From Acidimicrobiia bacterium (GTDB lineage Bacteria; Actinomycetota; Acidimicrobiia; Spongiisociales; ZC4RG35), in NCBI GenBank assembly GCA_025922945.1, contig JAICGW010000009.1:1-46049 (forward strand): a stretch of 46,049 nt of DNA. Direction: 5' to 3'. The translations under genes were made by a program, and so were the position numbers. The notes beneath the pieces are model-generated. The model was not told the origin of the DNA. It did no database searches and was given only the letters and a program-made list of their open reading frames with translations. This document shows positions 5,263 to 32,202 of this stretch, in pieces (within the stretch, counting starts at the first letter, position 1; each line of letters starts with the position of its first letter).

Positions 5263-5856
5263 GTGCCGACCCTGCCGGTAACGAGAAAAACCCGCGCCAC
5301 TTATGGCGACTTGGTCACGGCAGCCCGCGAATCGGTACGGCGCAGCGGGATCCTCTCTCCCGAAGCCGTGGCCGAGATGGCCGGCTTTTCACCCGCCACG
5401 CTGTACTCATACTTCGGATCGAAGGATTCGCTGCTGGCCGCGGCCTTCGATGCCGCCCTGGCCGATATCGCCATGGCGGTGGAGCCGATCCTGGGCATGG
5501 AACGGTTGCTCGAACGGGGCTGGGAACCGACCGCGCGGGCGTTGGTTCGTGTTGTCGTCCGGGGCTTTTCTCACGACGGAAAGCTGGTCCGCCTGGCGCT
5601 GAGCCGGCTCGGAGAATCGGAGGAGGTCCTCACGGTCTACCGCCGTCGCAATCAGGAAGAGATCGACCTCCTCACCCGGTTTATCCGTCTTGGGACCGCA
5701 GCGGGACAGCTTCGCCAGGGCGAGCCCTCCGTACTGGCCCGCACGGCGGTGCTCATGCTGCAGGCACTGCAAAACCCACTCGCCCTCGGCCCTGGCTCGG
5801 GACCGGTGATCGACGAGGTCAGCCGGGCGCTCTACCGGTTGCTCGCTCCCGATTAG
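5263..5856 (+). CDS. TetR/AcrR family transcriptional regulator
   Basis: N-terminal HTH: ILSPEAVAEMAGFSPATLYSYFGSKDSLLAAAFDAAL. Confidence 0.9.
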   Translation: MPTLPVTRKTRATYGDLVTAARESVRRSGILSPEAVAEMAGFSPATLYSYFGSKDSLLAAAFDAALADIAMAVEPILGMERLLERGWEPTARALVRVVVRGFSHDGKLVRLALSRLGESEEVLTVYRRRNQEEIDLLTRFIRLGTAAGQLRQGEPSVLARTAVLMLQALQNPLALGPGSGPVIDEVSRALYRLLAPD

Positions 5857-6932
5857 TCGCGGGGCAAACCCAGGATCGATTCGCCGATGATGTTGGCCAG
5901 CACCTGACTGGTACCGCCACCGATGGTGAGGGCGGGTGAAAACAGAAAACCCCAACTTTCTTCGTCGCCGTCGAGGAGCCCATCGGCACCAGCGGCGTCA
6001 CGCAGAAACCGCATGGCCCTTTGACCATGCCGATCAGCCATCATTTTCTTGATGGCTGCTTCGGGACCCGGCGAACGTCCGGCCATCTGCGCGCTGAGGA
6101 TCCGCATGCCCATGAACCTCATGACCTCGGCCTCGATATGGAGTGCGACCGCCTCTTGGGCGCGCAGGGAGTCGAGCGGGCGAGCGGCCGCGGCGAGGAC
6201 TTCTTTTGTGGTCGGTCCCATTCCCCAAAGCACTCCGCCCGAGGAGAGCGACACCCGCTCGTTGCCCAGGGTGAGCTTCGCCAGCGGCCAGCCCTCGTTT
6301 TCTTGACCCAGGAGGTGACCGGTGGGGACGCGGGCGTCGTCGAAGAAGACCTCTGTGAAATGGGCGCGCCCGGTCATCTCCTTTATCGGCCGCACCGTGA
6401 TCCCGGGTTGGCGCATCGGGCAAAGAAGATAAGAGATCCCCTTCTGCCGGGGTCCGCCGGTTCGAGCCAGGAGGATTCCATAGTCGGCCTCTCCGGCCCA
6501 GGTGTTCCAGACCTTTTGGCCGTTGACCACGTAAACATCGCCGTCACGTTCGGCACGGGTAGTCAAACTCGCCAAATCGGAGCCGGCCCCGGGCTCGGAG
6601 AAGAGCTGGCACCAGATCTCTTCCCCTCGAAGGAGAGGAGGGAGGAAGCGGGCCTTCTGCTCCTCGTTTCCTCCGATGAGGATCGTGGGCCCCGCCCAAC
6701 CGATTCCAATCGGGTTGTGACCCTGCTGATCGATGCCGGCAGCAGAAAGCTCCTCGGAGATGATCAGCTGGCCCTCGGCGTCAAAGTCGAGCCCCCACGG
6801 GCGGGGCCAACCGGGTGCGACATAGCCCGCCTCTGCCAGATCTGCTGGGCTCGGATCGGGATGACTTGTGATCCACTCCCTCACGGCTAGCCGCCGCGGG
6901 TCGTCCTGGGCGGGGAGGGCGAAGTCCATCAC
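5853..6932 (-). CDS. Acyl-CoA dehydrogenase
   Basis: 359 aa; CQLFSEPGAGSDLASLTTRAERDGDVYVVNGQKVWNTWAGEADYGILLARTG and C-terminal IGGGTSQVLANIIGESILGLPRD. Confidence 0.93.
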   Translation of the reverse strand: MMDFALPAQDDPRRLAVREWITSHPDPSPADLAEAGYVAPGWPRPWGLDFDAEGQLIISEELSAAGIDQQGHNPIGIGWAGPTILIGGNEEQKARFLPPLLRGEEIWCQLFSEPGAGSDLASLTTRAERDGDVYVVNGQKVWNTWAGEADYGILLARTGGPRQKGISYLLCPMRQPGITVRPIKEMTGRAHFTEVFFDDARVPTGHLLGQENEGWPLAKLTLGNERVSLSSGGVLWGMGPTTKEVLAAAARPLDSLRAQEAVALHIEAEVMRFMGMRILSAQMAGRSPGPEAAIKKMMADRHGQRAMRFLRDAAGADGLLDGDEESWGFLFSPALTIGGGTSQVLANIIGESILGLPRD

Positions 6933-27679: not shown

Positions 27680-28582
27680 TTACATAGCCACCAATGGCTG
27701 CACCCAGGCGGTGCCACTTGGATCCACTACTCGCGCCCTTAACGAAGAGGCGCTCCTCAATCGGCAGAAGCCGATCTCCCCTTCGACCCGTTCGACCACT
27801 TCGCCGTCGGCGATGAACTCGATAAGCGAGGCGCCGTAGGTGACGATTCGAAGGCTCTCTCCCGATCGAACTTCGATCTGAGACAGCTCTGGACCATTGG
27901 AGGCATAGAAACGACCGGCGGCCAGGGAGGCGGTCAAAGCCGCCGAGGTTTTTTCCTCGGCTTCTACCACCACCCACCCCCGGCCGGGATTCGAGAACTC
28001 CGTGCCCCACTCCTGGAAGTAGTGGGCGTCATCGACCGCCAGCCCAAACACGCGTTGGCCTTGCAGGAGCAACAGGTCCCAGACGGTGTCCATCGACGGC
28101 AGGTCGTCGGTGCCATCGTTGTAGGAGAGAGGGTGGCCGTTATAGACCTCGAAAAACTGCAGTTGGCGGAGGGCAGCGAGATCCTTCCATCCCACCGATG
28201 ACCAGAAGTTGGGGTGGTTGACCGAGGCCATCCCGCCGTTTTCGACGATCCGATCGACCAAGCCCTGGAGGACGCCTGGGACCGATTCCCCTCCCACGTC
28301 TCCGAGCGACGAGCTGGTTCCATAGCCATTGACGTGGAGGGCATATGTGCGCTCGTCGTCTTGCCACCAGCTCGTCAACTCCTCCCCTGGAATGAGGTGA
28401 AGGCGTCGTCCCTCGTCCAAAAGCTCGGACTGCAGAAAGACCGGATCGAAGCGGACGTTGTGGTCGGAAATGCAGAGGAAGTCGTAGCCGGCGTCGTCGT
28501 ACCACCGCGCCACTACCCCCGGGGGACTATCCCCATCGGAGAGCGAGGTGTGGGTGTGCAAGTTGCCCTTGAACCAAGGCAT
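27680..28582 (-). CDS. PHP-domain metallohydrolase (CehA/McbA-like)
   Basis: WFKGNLHTHTSLSDGDSPPGVVARWYDDAGYDFLCISDHN. Start set at the internal ATG 28582 of ORF 27680..28636. Confidence 0.85.
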   Translation of the reverse strand: MPWFKGNLHTHTSLSDGDSPPGVVARWYDDAGYDFLCISDHNVRFDPVFLQSELLDEGRRLHLIPGEELTSWWQDDERTYALHVNGYGTSSSLGDVGGESVPGVLQGLVDRIVENGGMASVNHPNFWSSVGWKDLAALRQLQFFEVYNGHPLSYNDGTDDLPSMDTVWDLLLLQGQRVFGLAVDDAHYFQEWGTEFSNPGRGWVVVEAEEKTSAALTASLAAGRFYASNGPELSQIEVRSGESLRIVTYGASLIEFIADGEVVERVEGEIGFCRLRSASSLRARVVDPSGTAWVQPLVAM

Positions 28583-28667
28583 CCGGACCGATTCTCGCGG
28601 GCCTGTGAGCTTCGTCCCCGCCCTGGGTAATCTCAATTGGGGCGAGAATCCCGTTAGGAACTATGAA

Positions 28668-28826
28668 ATGATCTTTGCATACATTGATCCCGGAACCGGG
28701 AGCTTGCTGCTCCAGGCCATCCTCGGCGGAATCGCCGGACTGGCCGTGTTCTTCAAGACCACAGGTCGGCGACTGTTTCGTCGCCACAAGAACACACCGG
28801 TCGAAGCGGAAACCACCGACGCCTAA
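28668..28826 (+). CDS. Small (52 aa) one-TM protein with YIDPGTGS motif
   Basis: MIFAYIDPGTGSLLLQAILGGIAGLAVFFKTTGRRLFRRHKNTPVEAETTDA. Stop lies 2 bp before the next GTG start. Confidence 0.72.
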   Translation: MIFAYIDPGTGSLLLQAILGGIAGLAVFFKTTGRRLFRRHKNTPVEAETTDA

Positions 28827-28828
28827 GG

Positions 28829-30190
28829 GTGGACAAGCCCGGTTCGGGTGACGCCTGGTTTGATACGGGCTCCTTTCGTGACCCCGCCAGTCGTGTGCGT
28901 TGGCGGGGAGACCAAGTCGAGCGCGTCCTCAGTCCCCAGGGCCTCGCCGATTGGAAGGCGCTTTCGGAAAGCGGGCTTTTAGAGGCGGAGCACGGGCGCC
29001 TGATTCTCACGGAGCCCGACGTCGACGATGCCTTGCTCCGGCACGAGCGGATTCCCATCTGGACCTATCCGTATGAGTGGAGCTTCGGCATGCTCAAGGC
29101 CGCAGCTCTACTGCAACTCGAGCTAATCGAGTCCGCTCTCGATCGCGGACTCACTTTGAAAGACGCCACTCCCTACAACATCCAGTTCCGGGGGGTAGAC
29201 CCGGTGTTTGTCGACATCGGCTCGTTTCGGCCCTACGAGCAGGGAGAGCCCTGGCTCGGCTACGGGCAGTTCTGCAGGCTCTTCCTCTATCCGCTCATGG
29301 TGCAGGCCCACGCCGGGATACCGTTCCGTCCGCTCCTGCGCGGGTCCCTCGATGGCATCGATCCCGATGTCGCCCGGGCGATGCTGCGCGGCCATCGCTT
29401 CAAATCGGGTGTATTGCTCGATGTGGTGATGCAGGCTCGCGCCCAGCGAAAGACGGCGGGAAGAGACGTCCGCCAGGAGCTCTCGGAGGCCGGCTTCCGG
29501 CCGGAGATGATCAAGGCCAACCTGACTCGCCTCCATCGCATCGTCGCCGGTCTCGATTGGGACCCAGTCGGGAGCACCTGGTCCGATTACAGCGAGTGCG
29601 CTCACGTCGGTACCCAACGAGAACCCAAGGCCGACTTCGTCCGCCAGATTGCAGGCCAGAAGCAAAGAAGTGTCACCTGGGACCTGGGGGCCAATGACGG
29701 ATATTTCTCTCGGCTCGCGGCCCCCCATAGCTCTTGGGTCGTGGCCGCCGACGCCGATGAGCTCGTCATCGATCGGCTATTCCGAGGTCTGCTGAGATCG
29801 GAGACGAAGAATGTGCTCCCAATGGTCTTCGACCTCTCCGACCCTTCTCCGGGGCTGGGATGGCGGGGAAGAGAACGCAAACGGCTCGACGAACGGGGTC
29901 GACCTGATCTCGTGCTCCTGTTGGCTGTCGTCCATCACCTGGTCGTCAGCGGCAACCTCCCGCTGACCGAAGTCATCGATTGGCTGCGATCACTGTCGTC
30001 GGAAGTGGTCTTCGAGTGGGTGCCGCCCACCGATCCCATGGCTCGAAAGCTGGCCCTCAACAAGCGAGCCGGCGAGATCCACGTCGACTATGACGAGTCG
30101 ACCTTGCGCCGAGCAATCGACCAACGCTTCGACATCGCCACAGAATCAGCGCTCGAAGGGCGCATCCTTTTTCATCTCGTCCCGCGGTGA
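28829..30190 (+). CDS. Class I SAM-dependent methyltransferase (NoeA-like) with kinase-like N-terminal region
   Basis: SAM motif TWDLGANDGYFSRLA; upstream LKDATPYNIQFRGVDPVFVDIGSF resembles DxxxxN...D(I/F)G kinase-fold motifs. Confidence 0.82.
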   Translation: MDKPGSGDAWFDTGSFRDPASRVRWRGDQVERVLSPQGLADWKALSESGLLEAEHGRLILTEPDVDDALLRHERIPIWTYPYEWSFGMLKAAALLQLELIESALDRGLTLKDATPYNIQFRGVDPVFVDIGSFRPYEQGEPWLGYGQFCRLFLYPLMVQAHAGIPFRPLLRGSLDGIDPDVARAMLRGHRFKSGVLLDVVMQARAQRKTAGRDVRQELSEAGFRPEMIKANLTRLHRIVAGLDWDPVGSTWSDYSECAHVGTQREPKADFVRQIAGQKQRSVTWDLGANDGYFSRLAAPHSSWVVAADADELVIDRLFRGLLRSETKNVLPMVFDLSDPSPGLGWRGRERKRLDERGRPDLVLLLAVVHHLVVSGNLPLTEVIDWLRSLSSEVVFEWVPPTDPMARKLALNKRAGEIHVDYDESTLRRAIDQRFDIATESALEGRILFHLVPR

Positions 30191-32202
30191 CGAACCGACT
30201 CACCCGCACATCTGCGCTCATCACCCTGGCGACGATGGGAGTGGCGTGGCCGGTGCTCGACATCCTCGGCCGCAACGCCGAATTTTTCGTCGCCCGCGGC
30301 TCGGGACGGCTTGAAATCGTGTTGCTGGTACTCGCCATCGGATTCGGAGTCGCCGCCGTAGCCGCCCTGCCGGGGCTGATTCCATCCCGGGCCGGAACCG
30401 CAATTTCGACCGCCGAGGGCGTTGTTCTTGCCACCGTGCTTGGCTATCTCCTTTTTCGCCGGCTCGGGCTCGCTCCCGGAGTGGAGGAAACTCTGGCGGT
30501 TGGGTTCGGGGCGGGAGCTGTGGCGGCTGTTCACCGCAGCGCAGCCGCCCAAAGCCTGGTCCGGCTGCTCGCCTTCAGTCCCTTGATAGTCATTCCCTAC
30601 TTCTTGCTCGCTACTCCCTCGGGCGGCATCGTGACCGATCGGGGGGTGCCGATCGCCTCGGCGGTCGAACCGCAACGGCGGCCTCCGATCGTCTTTCTCA
30701 TCTTCGACGAGTTTCCCCTCGCCTCCCTGATCGACCCCGAAGGCAACCTCCGTCGCGATCGCTACCCGAACTTCGCCGCGCTGGCCGACGACGGCACTTG
30801 GTTTCGCAATGCCATGACCGTTCAGCAGCAGACGGAGCATTCGGTTCCGGCGATTCTCACCGGGATCAACCCCGACACCAGCCTCAATCCGTACGCCGGC
30901 CAATATCCCGGCAGCCTCTTCACCGCTCTTTCCTCGGCCTATCGAATGGAAATACAGGAGACGATGACCCGACTTTGTCCGGTCACCGTGTGCGAACGAG
31001 TACCAGACCTCGAGTCGCGCGGCGTCGAGCCGCTGATCCGCGATGTCGGAGTAATCGCCGGACACACCCTGCTCCCTCCATGGGCCACCACCCGGCTTCC
31101 CCTCATCGACCGCAACTGGGGCAACTTTGGCCAAGCCACCGAGGACTTCAACGCCATCGAAGCCTTCAACGACGCTCGCCGTGACGATCCCCGCGACACG
31201 ATCGAACAACTGATTACCGACATCGAGGAAAACTCTTCAGCGCGGCCGACCTTCTTCTTCGCTCATGAACTTCTCCCCCACAATCCGTGGCAATTCCTAC
31301 CCACCGGGCAGAGGTATCTCCTCGACTCGGAACGATTGCCGGGGAGCGCCTCGACGGGGTGGGGACCCAACGACTGGCTCTCTGCTCAGGCTTTGCAGCG
31401 TCATCTATTGCAGGTGCAATACGTCGACCGTGCCGTCGGAGAAATCATGAATGCCATGCGGGAATCCGGCATCTACGAGGAGAGCCTCCTGGTGGTGGTG
31501 GCCGATCACGGGATCGCGTTGCGGCCCAACATCGAGCACTGGCGCAAGATCACTCCGGAGACGATCGGGGAGGTGGCGGCGGTGCCGCTATTCATCAAGC
31601 CCCCGGCAGACTCGGCGGCCGCCGCGCAGGCCGGCCAAATCGACGACCGACGCGCCCACACCACCGACATCGCTCCCACCGTGGCCGATTTGCTGGGCTT
31701 CGCTCTGCCCTGGACTGCCGATGGCGTATCCCTCTTTGGCCCCGATCCCCACCGAACCGAGACCACGACGACGGGCCCGAGTTCGTCCGCCACGTTCGGA
31801 GTCGGAGGAGACGAGGTGTTGGCGGTGGCCGCGCGAAACGCCGCGTGGTTCCCTAGCGGCGATCCTTACGAATTAAGGCCCCCTGAATCCCCCGACCTGG
31901 TCGGAGATCCCATCTCCGAATTGACCCCTACCAACGACCAGATCCGGATCAGCATTGATCGCCGCCAGGCCTACGAGGACGTCGATCCCGACGGCGACCG
32001 GGTGCCGGCGCGGATCACCGGTCGAGTTTTGGGGTTGCCCGAGGGAGAGGAGACGCTCGTGGCTGTGGCGATCAATGGTGTGATCGAAGCGGTGGTTCGC
32101 TCCTATCACGATCGGGGACGGAGCGGCTTCCAGGCGATGGTCCCTCCCGACCGGTTCCGCCCCGGGGACAACACCGTCGAAGCGATGGCCTTCGATCCCT
32201 AA
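30187..32202 (+). CDS. Membrane-anchored sulfatase-like / alkaline-phosphatase-superfamily enzyme
   Basis: N-terminal TMs, then IVFLIFDEFPLASL, HELLPHNPWQF, VVVADHGIALRP. GTGA overlap with the methyltransferase. Confidence 0.85.
   Translation: MTNRLTRTSALITLATMGVAWPVLDILGRNAEFFVARGSGRLEIVLLVLAIGFGVAAVAALPGLIPSRAGTAISTAEGVVLATVLGYLLFRRLGLAPGVEETLAVGFGAGAVAAVHRSAAAQSLVRLLAFSPLIVIPYFLLATPSGGIVTDRGVPIASAVEPQRRPPIVFLIFDEFPLASLIDPEGNLRRDRYPNFAALADDGTWFRNAMTVQQQTEHSVPAILTGINPDTSLNPYAGQYPGSLFTALSSAYRMEIQETMTRLCPVTVCERVPDLESRGVEPLIRDVGVIAGHTLLPPWATTRLPLIDRNWGNFGQATEDFNAIEAFNDARRDDPRDTIEQLITDIEENSSARPTFFFAHELLPHNPWQFLPTGQRYLLDSERLPGSASTGWGPNDWLSAQALQRHLLQVQYVDRAVGEIMNAMRESGIYEESLLVVVADHGIALRPNIEHWRKITPETIGEVAAVPLFIKPPADSAAAAQAGQIDDRRAHTTDIAPTVADLLGFALPWTADGVSLFGPDPHRTETTTTGPSSSATFGVGGDEVLAVAARNAAWFPSGDPYELRPPESPDLVGDPISELTPTNDQIRISIDRRQAYEDVDPDGDRVPARITGRVLGLPEGEETLVAVAINGVIEAVVRSYHDRGRSGFQAMVPPDRFRPGDNTVEAMAFDP

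Follow-up and report, generated by a model that had tools for sequence, protein, structure and literature searches.

A single-span micro-protein with a YxDPGTGS-type motif encoded beside NoeA-type kinase-methyltransferases and AlkP-superfamily enzymes

The three-gene locus

This study concerns a 46,049-nucleotide stretch of an Acidimicrobiia genome (contig JAICGW010000009.1 of assembly GCA_025922945.1), hereafter the window, and three genes that lie head to tail on its forward strand, encoding a 52-residue single-span membrane protein (the micro-protein), a 453-residue NoeA-type kinase-methyltransferase and a 671-residue membrane protein of the AlkP superfamily. The stop codon of the micro-gene is separated by a 2-bp gap from the start of the kinase-methyltransferase gene, which overlaps the AlkP gene by GTGA, and this is exactly the packing of open reading frames (ORFs) described in the original prediction, which had been made from the sequence alone. 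The micro-protein, MIFAYIDPGTGSLLLQAILGGIAGLAVFFKTTGRRLFRRHKNTPVEAETTDA, belongs to a family that accompanies kinase-methyltransferase genes of this type in many phyla. The features of the locus are given below.

28656-28659, forward strand: Shine-Dalgarno-like AGGA, which probably serves the micro-gene as ribosome-binding site (from sequence), 8 bases before the ATG at 28668
28668-28826, forward strand: micro-gene, 52-aa single-span membrane protein (ATG 28668, TAA 28824-28826)
28829-30190, forward strand: kinase-methyltransferase gene, 453 aa (GTG 28829, TGA ending 30190)
30187-32202, forward strand: AlkP gene, 671 aa (GTG 30187, TAA ending 32202)
30196-30636, forward strand: AlkP protein, membrane helices at the N-terminus, residues ~4-150 (model helices, hydropathy)
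30688-31740, forward strand: AlkP catalytic domain, residues ~168-518, with D174, T216, H360, H365, D440 and H441 (model, profile search, alignment)

Over 40 codons, the micro-gene differs from that of a congeneric genome (L032) by 21 synonymous and 5 non-synonymous codon changes, and 22 of the 29 base differences fall at third positions; this drift shows that the micro-ORF is a real gene rather than a chance reading frame. The DNA of its motif occurs only once in the 2.56-Mb genome.

Linkage of the three genes across bacteria

Among 198 genomes of the class, the kinase-methyltransferase was found in 38 and the micro-protein in 42, with 36 genomes carrying both, 2 and 6 carrying one of them alone, and 154 carrying neither (Fisher p 8e-31). 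In 35 of the 36 genomes that have both, the kinase-methyltransferase gene is immediately preceded by the micro-gene in the same orientation. About 23 class loci had appeared to lack the micro-protein when the strict motif Y-x-D-P-G was used, a result that was overturned by a relaxed motif, which found Y-L-[DE]-[PAG] variants in nearly all of them. A phylum-wide search found the kinase-methyltransferase in 43 of 397 genomes, mostly with the micro-gene upstream.

A scan of genome contigs with the window kinase-methyltransferase as a single sequence returned nothing, whereas an alignment query succeeded, and the alignment-based scan of the collection returned at least 578 relatives. The best 80 of these at least 578 (L100-L179), ranked by similarity to one query and including many metagenome bins, make up the cross-phylum set, which spans deltaproteobacterial, Chloroflexota, Krumholzibacteriota, Zixibacteria, Gammaproteobacteria, Armatimonadota, cyanobacterial, Firmicutes, Bacteroidota, Planctomycetota-type, Aminicenantes, Dependentiae and candidate-phylum genomes. 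A hidden Markov model (HMM) of the micro-protein, trained on copies adjoining the methyltransferase gene, detected the family in 77 of these 80 loci, within 600 bp of the kinase-methyltransferase in 74, and two of the three loci without it begin at a contig edge. When 49 cross-phylum genomes were searched whole, the micro-protein was present in all 49 and in each case inside the retrieved locus. An AlkP gene, detected with a broad HMM, lies within 1 kb in 55 of the 80 loci. Over all 148 kinase-methyltransferase loci, a motif scan placed the micro-protein at 128, and an AlkP gene is adjacent at 96. The conserved adjacency that the original prediction proposed to look for by neighbourhood search is thus present both within the class and across phyla, and the micro-protein is far from being unconserved or confined to close relatives of this genome.

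Topoisomerase I accounts for ten of the upstream neighbours in the cross-phylum set. At L111, L154 and other Anaerolineae loci, the micro-gene and the kinase-methyltransferase gene stand right after topA, and an AlkP gene does not adjoin them.

The micro-protein family

Members of the family share the motif Y-[LI]-D-[PA]-G-[TS]-G-S, followed by one hydrophobic span and a basic tail. The window member, recovered by the family HMM with an E value of 2.7e-21, has four residues before the Tyr of its motif (Y5-I-D7-P-G-T-G-S), a span at about residues 11-29 and a basic C-terminal tail, in support of the one-span membrane architecture claimed originally. Among 153 unique micro-proteins, the Tyr of the motif is kept in 150, the Asp in 151, a Thr or Ser in 149, the Gly after it in 138 and the final Ser in 139. 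The C-terminal flank of the span is more positive than the N-terminal flank in 127 of the 153 (means +2.7 and -1.0). A further hydrophobic segment, absent from the window member, precedes the motif in 53 of the 153, and a small-x-small site of signal-peptidase type, most commonly AHA or AYA, ends right before the Tyr in 48 of these 53, compared with 21 of the 100 without the segment, suggesting that the Tyr stands at or near the mature N-terminus, outside the cell. The sequences thus suggest a topology with the Y-x-D end outside and the basic tail inside.

The family fits no entry of Pfam, NCBIfam or the PDB. Pfam gave no credible match for 38 members, a PDB search matched only chance membrane spans, and a literature search with motif strings found no paper; NCBIfam beta-lactamase matches were far below cut-off and were judged to be chance. 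A tblastn search of plasmids with the 52-aa protein also gave no match, although plasmids do carry the micro-protein, which shows that the family escapes pairwise search.

The kinase-methyltransferase

The second gene, which had been called a methyltransferase, does contain such a domain, but the assignment is refined here to a NoeA-type fusion of a kinase-like domain with a class I methyltransferase domain, as judged from its sequence. Pfam methyltransferase matches to the 453-aa protein were below threshold only. A tblastn search of annotated plasmids aligned 95% of it with Sinorhizobium NoeA (32% identity, E 2e-52). The kinase-like residues R32, D112, N117 and D129 and the D285, G287 and N289 of the S-adenosylmethionine (SAM) motif D285-x-G-x-N289 are identical in all 46 aligned homologues. 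In the AlphaFold model, which is confident (pLDDT 91.8), the C-terminal part has a class I methyltransferase fold, with Foldseek matches to NodS (3ofk) and other methyltransferases. Full-length Foldseek matches in the PDB fall mostly on the methyltransferase domain, and viral Ser/Thr kinases are among the weaker BFVD matches; the kinase-like fold of the N-terminal half is putative and draws on the Foldseek matches, on the conserved residues and on a model published for a relative. Most of the model length is also matched by BFVD entry A0A481Z196, a 409-aa "methyltransferase domain protein" of Mimivirus LCMiAC01 (TMq 0.61, E 3.6e-16).

A 2022 survey counts about 1,200 species with the Lani_1194/NoeA family and describes it as a fusion of a class I methyltransferase domain to a kinase-like domain in which Arg replaces the usual Lys (PMC9758233). 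The window protein shares with the Legionella protein Lani_1194 its homology to NoeA, the Arg-for-Lys exchange and the D/N/D pattern (PMC9758233), and R32 of the window protein would correspond to the published R38.

The AlkP-superfamily protein

The 671-aa protein matches the Pfam Sulfatase family (7.9e-21), and its AlphaFold model (pLDDT 87.5) matches phosphonate monoester hydrolases, sulfatases and, by full-length fold, the membrane protein PbgA/YejM (6v8q) in Foldseek. Among solved structures, a profile search placed phosphonate monoester hydrolases closest (E 1.3e-28), with further matches to a lipoteichoic acid (LTA) primase (3.3e-16) and to LtaS structures (E 3.8e-14). The stretch T216-E-H-S-V-P-A-I-L-T-G was aligned by eye with the sulfatase motif C-x-P-S-R-x-x-x-x-T-G, and the motif spacing suggests that T216 takes the nucleophile position; the automatic profile alignment puts the phosphonate hydrolase Cys a few residues off T216, in a loop of other length. 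Across 32 homologues, position 216 is Thr in 30, Ser in 2 and Cys in none, and all 32 keep H360, H365 and D440. The chemistry of formylglycine sulfatases, in which the Cys (or Ser) of C-x-P-S-R becomes formylglycine, is therefore unlikely, and this function was rejected for want of the Cys. The original prediction had named a phospho- or sulfotransferase; the sequence favours the first half of that claim, phosphate- or phosphonate-type transfer or hydrolysis, over sulfate chemistry, a preference that also draws on established knowledge of the AlkP superfamily. The predicted combination of membrane helices with an AlkP domain that has a Thr at the nucleophile position and the metal ligands is that of LtaS/EptA-type proteins, and in position and modelled fold the protein is NoeB-like.

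Copies of the micro-protein apart from the kinase-methyltransferase

The micro-protein also occurs without the kinase-methyltransferase nearby. At five class loci (L184, L187, L188, L189, L192) it stands beside or near AlkP genes, at L199 and L200 it precedes an AlkP gene, and at six further class loci (L183, L185, L186, L190, L191, L193) it adjoins neither enzyme within the stretch fetched. Five Chloroflexota genomes (L194-L198) contain two micro-proteins, of which the first accompanies the kinase-methyltransferase, in several cases beside topA, and the second, of the subtype MYIDP[NG][TS]GG, is encoded directly before a Phosphodiest-type AlkP protein of about 605 aa. Near this second micro-gene there is a gene for a sulfotransferase-like protein and, in many cases, one for a TAT-type AlkP protein. 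The order is not fixed either: the micro-gene is downstream of the kinase-methyltransferase gene in L095, L100, L110, L142 and L163, and some copies are on the opposite strand.

Two of the AlkP-associated loci, L187 (3735-8983) and L188 (5635-14041), combine the micro-gene and the AlkP gene with genes for a phosphoenolpyruvate (PEP) mutase-cytidylyltransferase, a thiamine pyrophosphate (TPP)-decarboxylase-type protein and an Fe-alcohol dehydrogenase, and L187 also has a NeuB gene. Their gene content makes a phosphonate pathway, possibly for hydroxyethylphosphonate, coupled to an AlkP surface enzyme probable.

Nodulation, polysaccharide and viral contexts

On the Sinorhizobium plasmid pSymA, nodL is followed by a 71-codon gene, whose product includes PAHAYLDPGTGSMLVQ, and then by noeA and noeB. 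At Novosphingobium the three genes stand beside polysaccharide export and GDP-mannose genes. Three IMG/VR viral contigs carry the micro-protein, the kinase-methyltransferase and the AlkP protein in a row. No kinase-methyltransferase was found in annotated phage genomes, so the phage link comes solely from these three contigs, which suggest phage-borne modification of the host surface. The loci are as follows.

S. meliloti pSymA CP140953.1 (L099), 5751-5966: micro-gene of 71 codons, annotated as a hypothetical protein and overlapping noeA by 23 bases as annotated
IMG/VR contigs L180, 1-5827, and L181, 1-8221: Zot-like/M13 pI-like filamentous-phage morphogenesis ATPase upstream
IMG/VR contig L182, 1-13353: tail-fibre genes directly upstream

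In the window itself, a CehA/McbA-type PHP metallohydrolase gene (27680-28636, reverse strand) is divergent from the three genes and has a homologue in the same place in L032. Other neighbours encode an oligopeptide-binding protein and epimerase-like and transporter-like proteins, the last two named from sequence appearance alone.

Comparison with known systems

noeA and noeB were reportedly described as host-range nodulation genes by Ardourel in 1995. As later cited, they are host-range genes for which a role in Nod-factor modification was only hypothesised (PMC9048898, PMC9758233), and in one strain poor nodulation accompanies a natural truncation of noeA (PMC4053727). The nodL-noeA-noeB operon (nod box n5) of the alfalfa symbiont S. 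meliloti and the window share a homologous kinase-methyltransferase gene, an adjoining AlkP gene and, directly upstream of noeA, the micro-gene, with the motif YLDPGTGS in the operon. They differ in that the window has neither nodL nor other nod genes nor a known symbiosis, that NoeB is distant from the window AlkP protein (16% in the alignment), which has an extra C-terminal beta region, and that the Sinorhizobium micro-protein has a signal-peptide-like N-terminus, which the window member lacks.

WbdD, the kinase-methyltransferase that caps the O9a O-antigen of E. coli, likewise combines both activities in one protein, and a profile search weakly matches the window protein to the methyltransferase domain of WbdD (E 0.002). 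This domain is N-terminal in WbdD (matched residues 53-102), however, and C-terminal in the window protein, and we know of no micro-protein or AlkP partner of WbdD. LtaS, the phosphoethanolamine transferases and PbgA share with the window AlkP protein the succession of N-terminal membrane helices and an AlkP domain, whereas the sequence of the latter is closest to phosphonate monoester hydrolases; to our knowledge, none of them needs a YxDPGTGS micro-protein.

In the Legionella survey, the AlkP neighbour Lani_1195 was present in 38% of 816 neighbourhoods and an unspecified neighbour, Lani_1193, in 65% (PMC9758233). The text of that report contains no description of the micro-protein and does not give the identity of Lani_1193, which may be the micro-protein; if so, part of the linkage reported here has already been counted (PMC9758233). 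The authors discuss possible Legionella effector roles, whereas the loci studied here come mostly from environmental lineages (PMC9758233).

Proposed role and alternatives

The sequences show gene linkage, conserved catalytic residues and a one-span architecture; we infer a model, covering topology, contacts, chemistry and substrate, in which the unit would chemically decorate a glycan or glycolipid produced at the cytoplasmic membrane. On the cytoplasmic side, a precursor would receive phosphoryl and methyl groups from the NoeA-type protein; on the outer side, the AlkP protein would use Thr216 to transfer or remove a group of phosphate type. The micro-protein would span the membrane, its Y-x-D-P-G-[TS]-G-S end facing outwards and its basic tail inwards, and would act as an adaptor that ties the two enzymes together or links them to one lipid-linked substrate. 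A glycan or lipid target had been proposed from the window sequence, and it is now the target to which the nodL-noeA-noeB operon, the polysaccharide export and GDP-mannose genes, the phosphonate and NeuB genes and the tail-fibre-adjacent viral copy point. The principal argument for an adaptor or shared subunit is that the micro-protein pairs with both enzymes, and its occurrence with the AlkP protein alone at some loci is what would be expected of a part that serves both. Several observations weigh on the other side: no natural fusion of the micro-protein to either enzyme was found; the window neighbours of the three genes include no glycan genes; one class genome (G149) has the kinase-methyltransferase and the micro-protein on different contigs; many Chloroflexota loci have the two genes beside topA with no adjacent AlkP gene; and kinase-like activity is uncertain, as the usual Lys is replaced by Arg and the ion-pair Glu was not identified (PMC9758233). 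With these points in the balance, we give a membrane-spanning unit that decorates an exported glycan or glycolipid, with the micro-protein as its adaptor, about even chances. A bolder version, which we hold only tentatively and would not expect to prevail, makes the near-universal micro-protein family the membrane core of a trans-envelope modification machine, present in over a dozen phyla, that couples a cytoplasmic kinase-methyltransferase to extracytoplasmic AlkP transferases; the family would also be the missing third part of the NoeA-NoeB host-range system, and its phage copies would probably alter the host surface.

The pairing of the micro-protein with either enzyme would also be seen if it were itself the acceptor, such that the AlkP protein moves a group onto its Tyr, Thr/Ser or Ser, or the kinase-methyltransferase modifies its tail, to yield a modified membrane peptide. 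The hydroxyl residues (Y 150/153, T/S 149/153, S 139/153), which are among the best conserved of the family, are indeed at or close to what is probably the mature N-terminus; the D and G of the motif are equally conserved, however, which also fits a structural role, and small molecules or glycans are the products suggested by the contexts of Nod operon, phosphonate and exopolysaccharide genes, making this reading unlikely. We consider it similarly improbable that the AlkP partner is a hydrolase for trimming or recycling, or a non-catalytic regulator like YejM/PbgA, so that the unit removes or senses envelope groups. The profile proximity to phosphonate monoester hydrolases and the full-length fold match to PbgA/YejM favour it, but the metal-site and nucleophile residues of the AlkP protein are kept, contrary to a purely non-catalytic role, and a kinase-like methyltransferase partner fits building more naturally. 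At most loci the micro-ORF runs into the kinase-methyltransferase gene or ends very close to it, which could indicate a mere leader peptide or a device for translational coupling of the downstream gene. However, its amino acids are strongly conserved while third positions drift, and there are copies downstream of the gene, copies on the other strand and copies that accompany an AlkP gene alone; this reading, largely refuted by the sequences, was rejected as very improbable.

Implications

The pairing of the kinase-methyltransferase with an AlkP protein is already published (PMC9758233). The apparently new elements are the family of micro-proteins, its almost obligatory presence in the unit, the copy that lies between nodL and noeA-noeB, the pairing with AlkP proteins on their own and the copies on viral contigs. 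The family would make it possible to trace by sequence AlkP-type surface enzymes whose substrates are unknown, among them the phosphonate-adjacent and viral ones. The noeA-noeB host-range pair probably has an overlooked third partner in the micro-protein, and because nodL and noeA have a 71-codon gene of this family between them, and members of the family go with noeA-type genes in many phyla, the unit is directly testable in laboratory Sinorhizobium.

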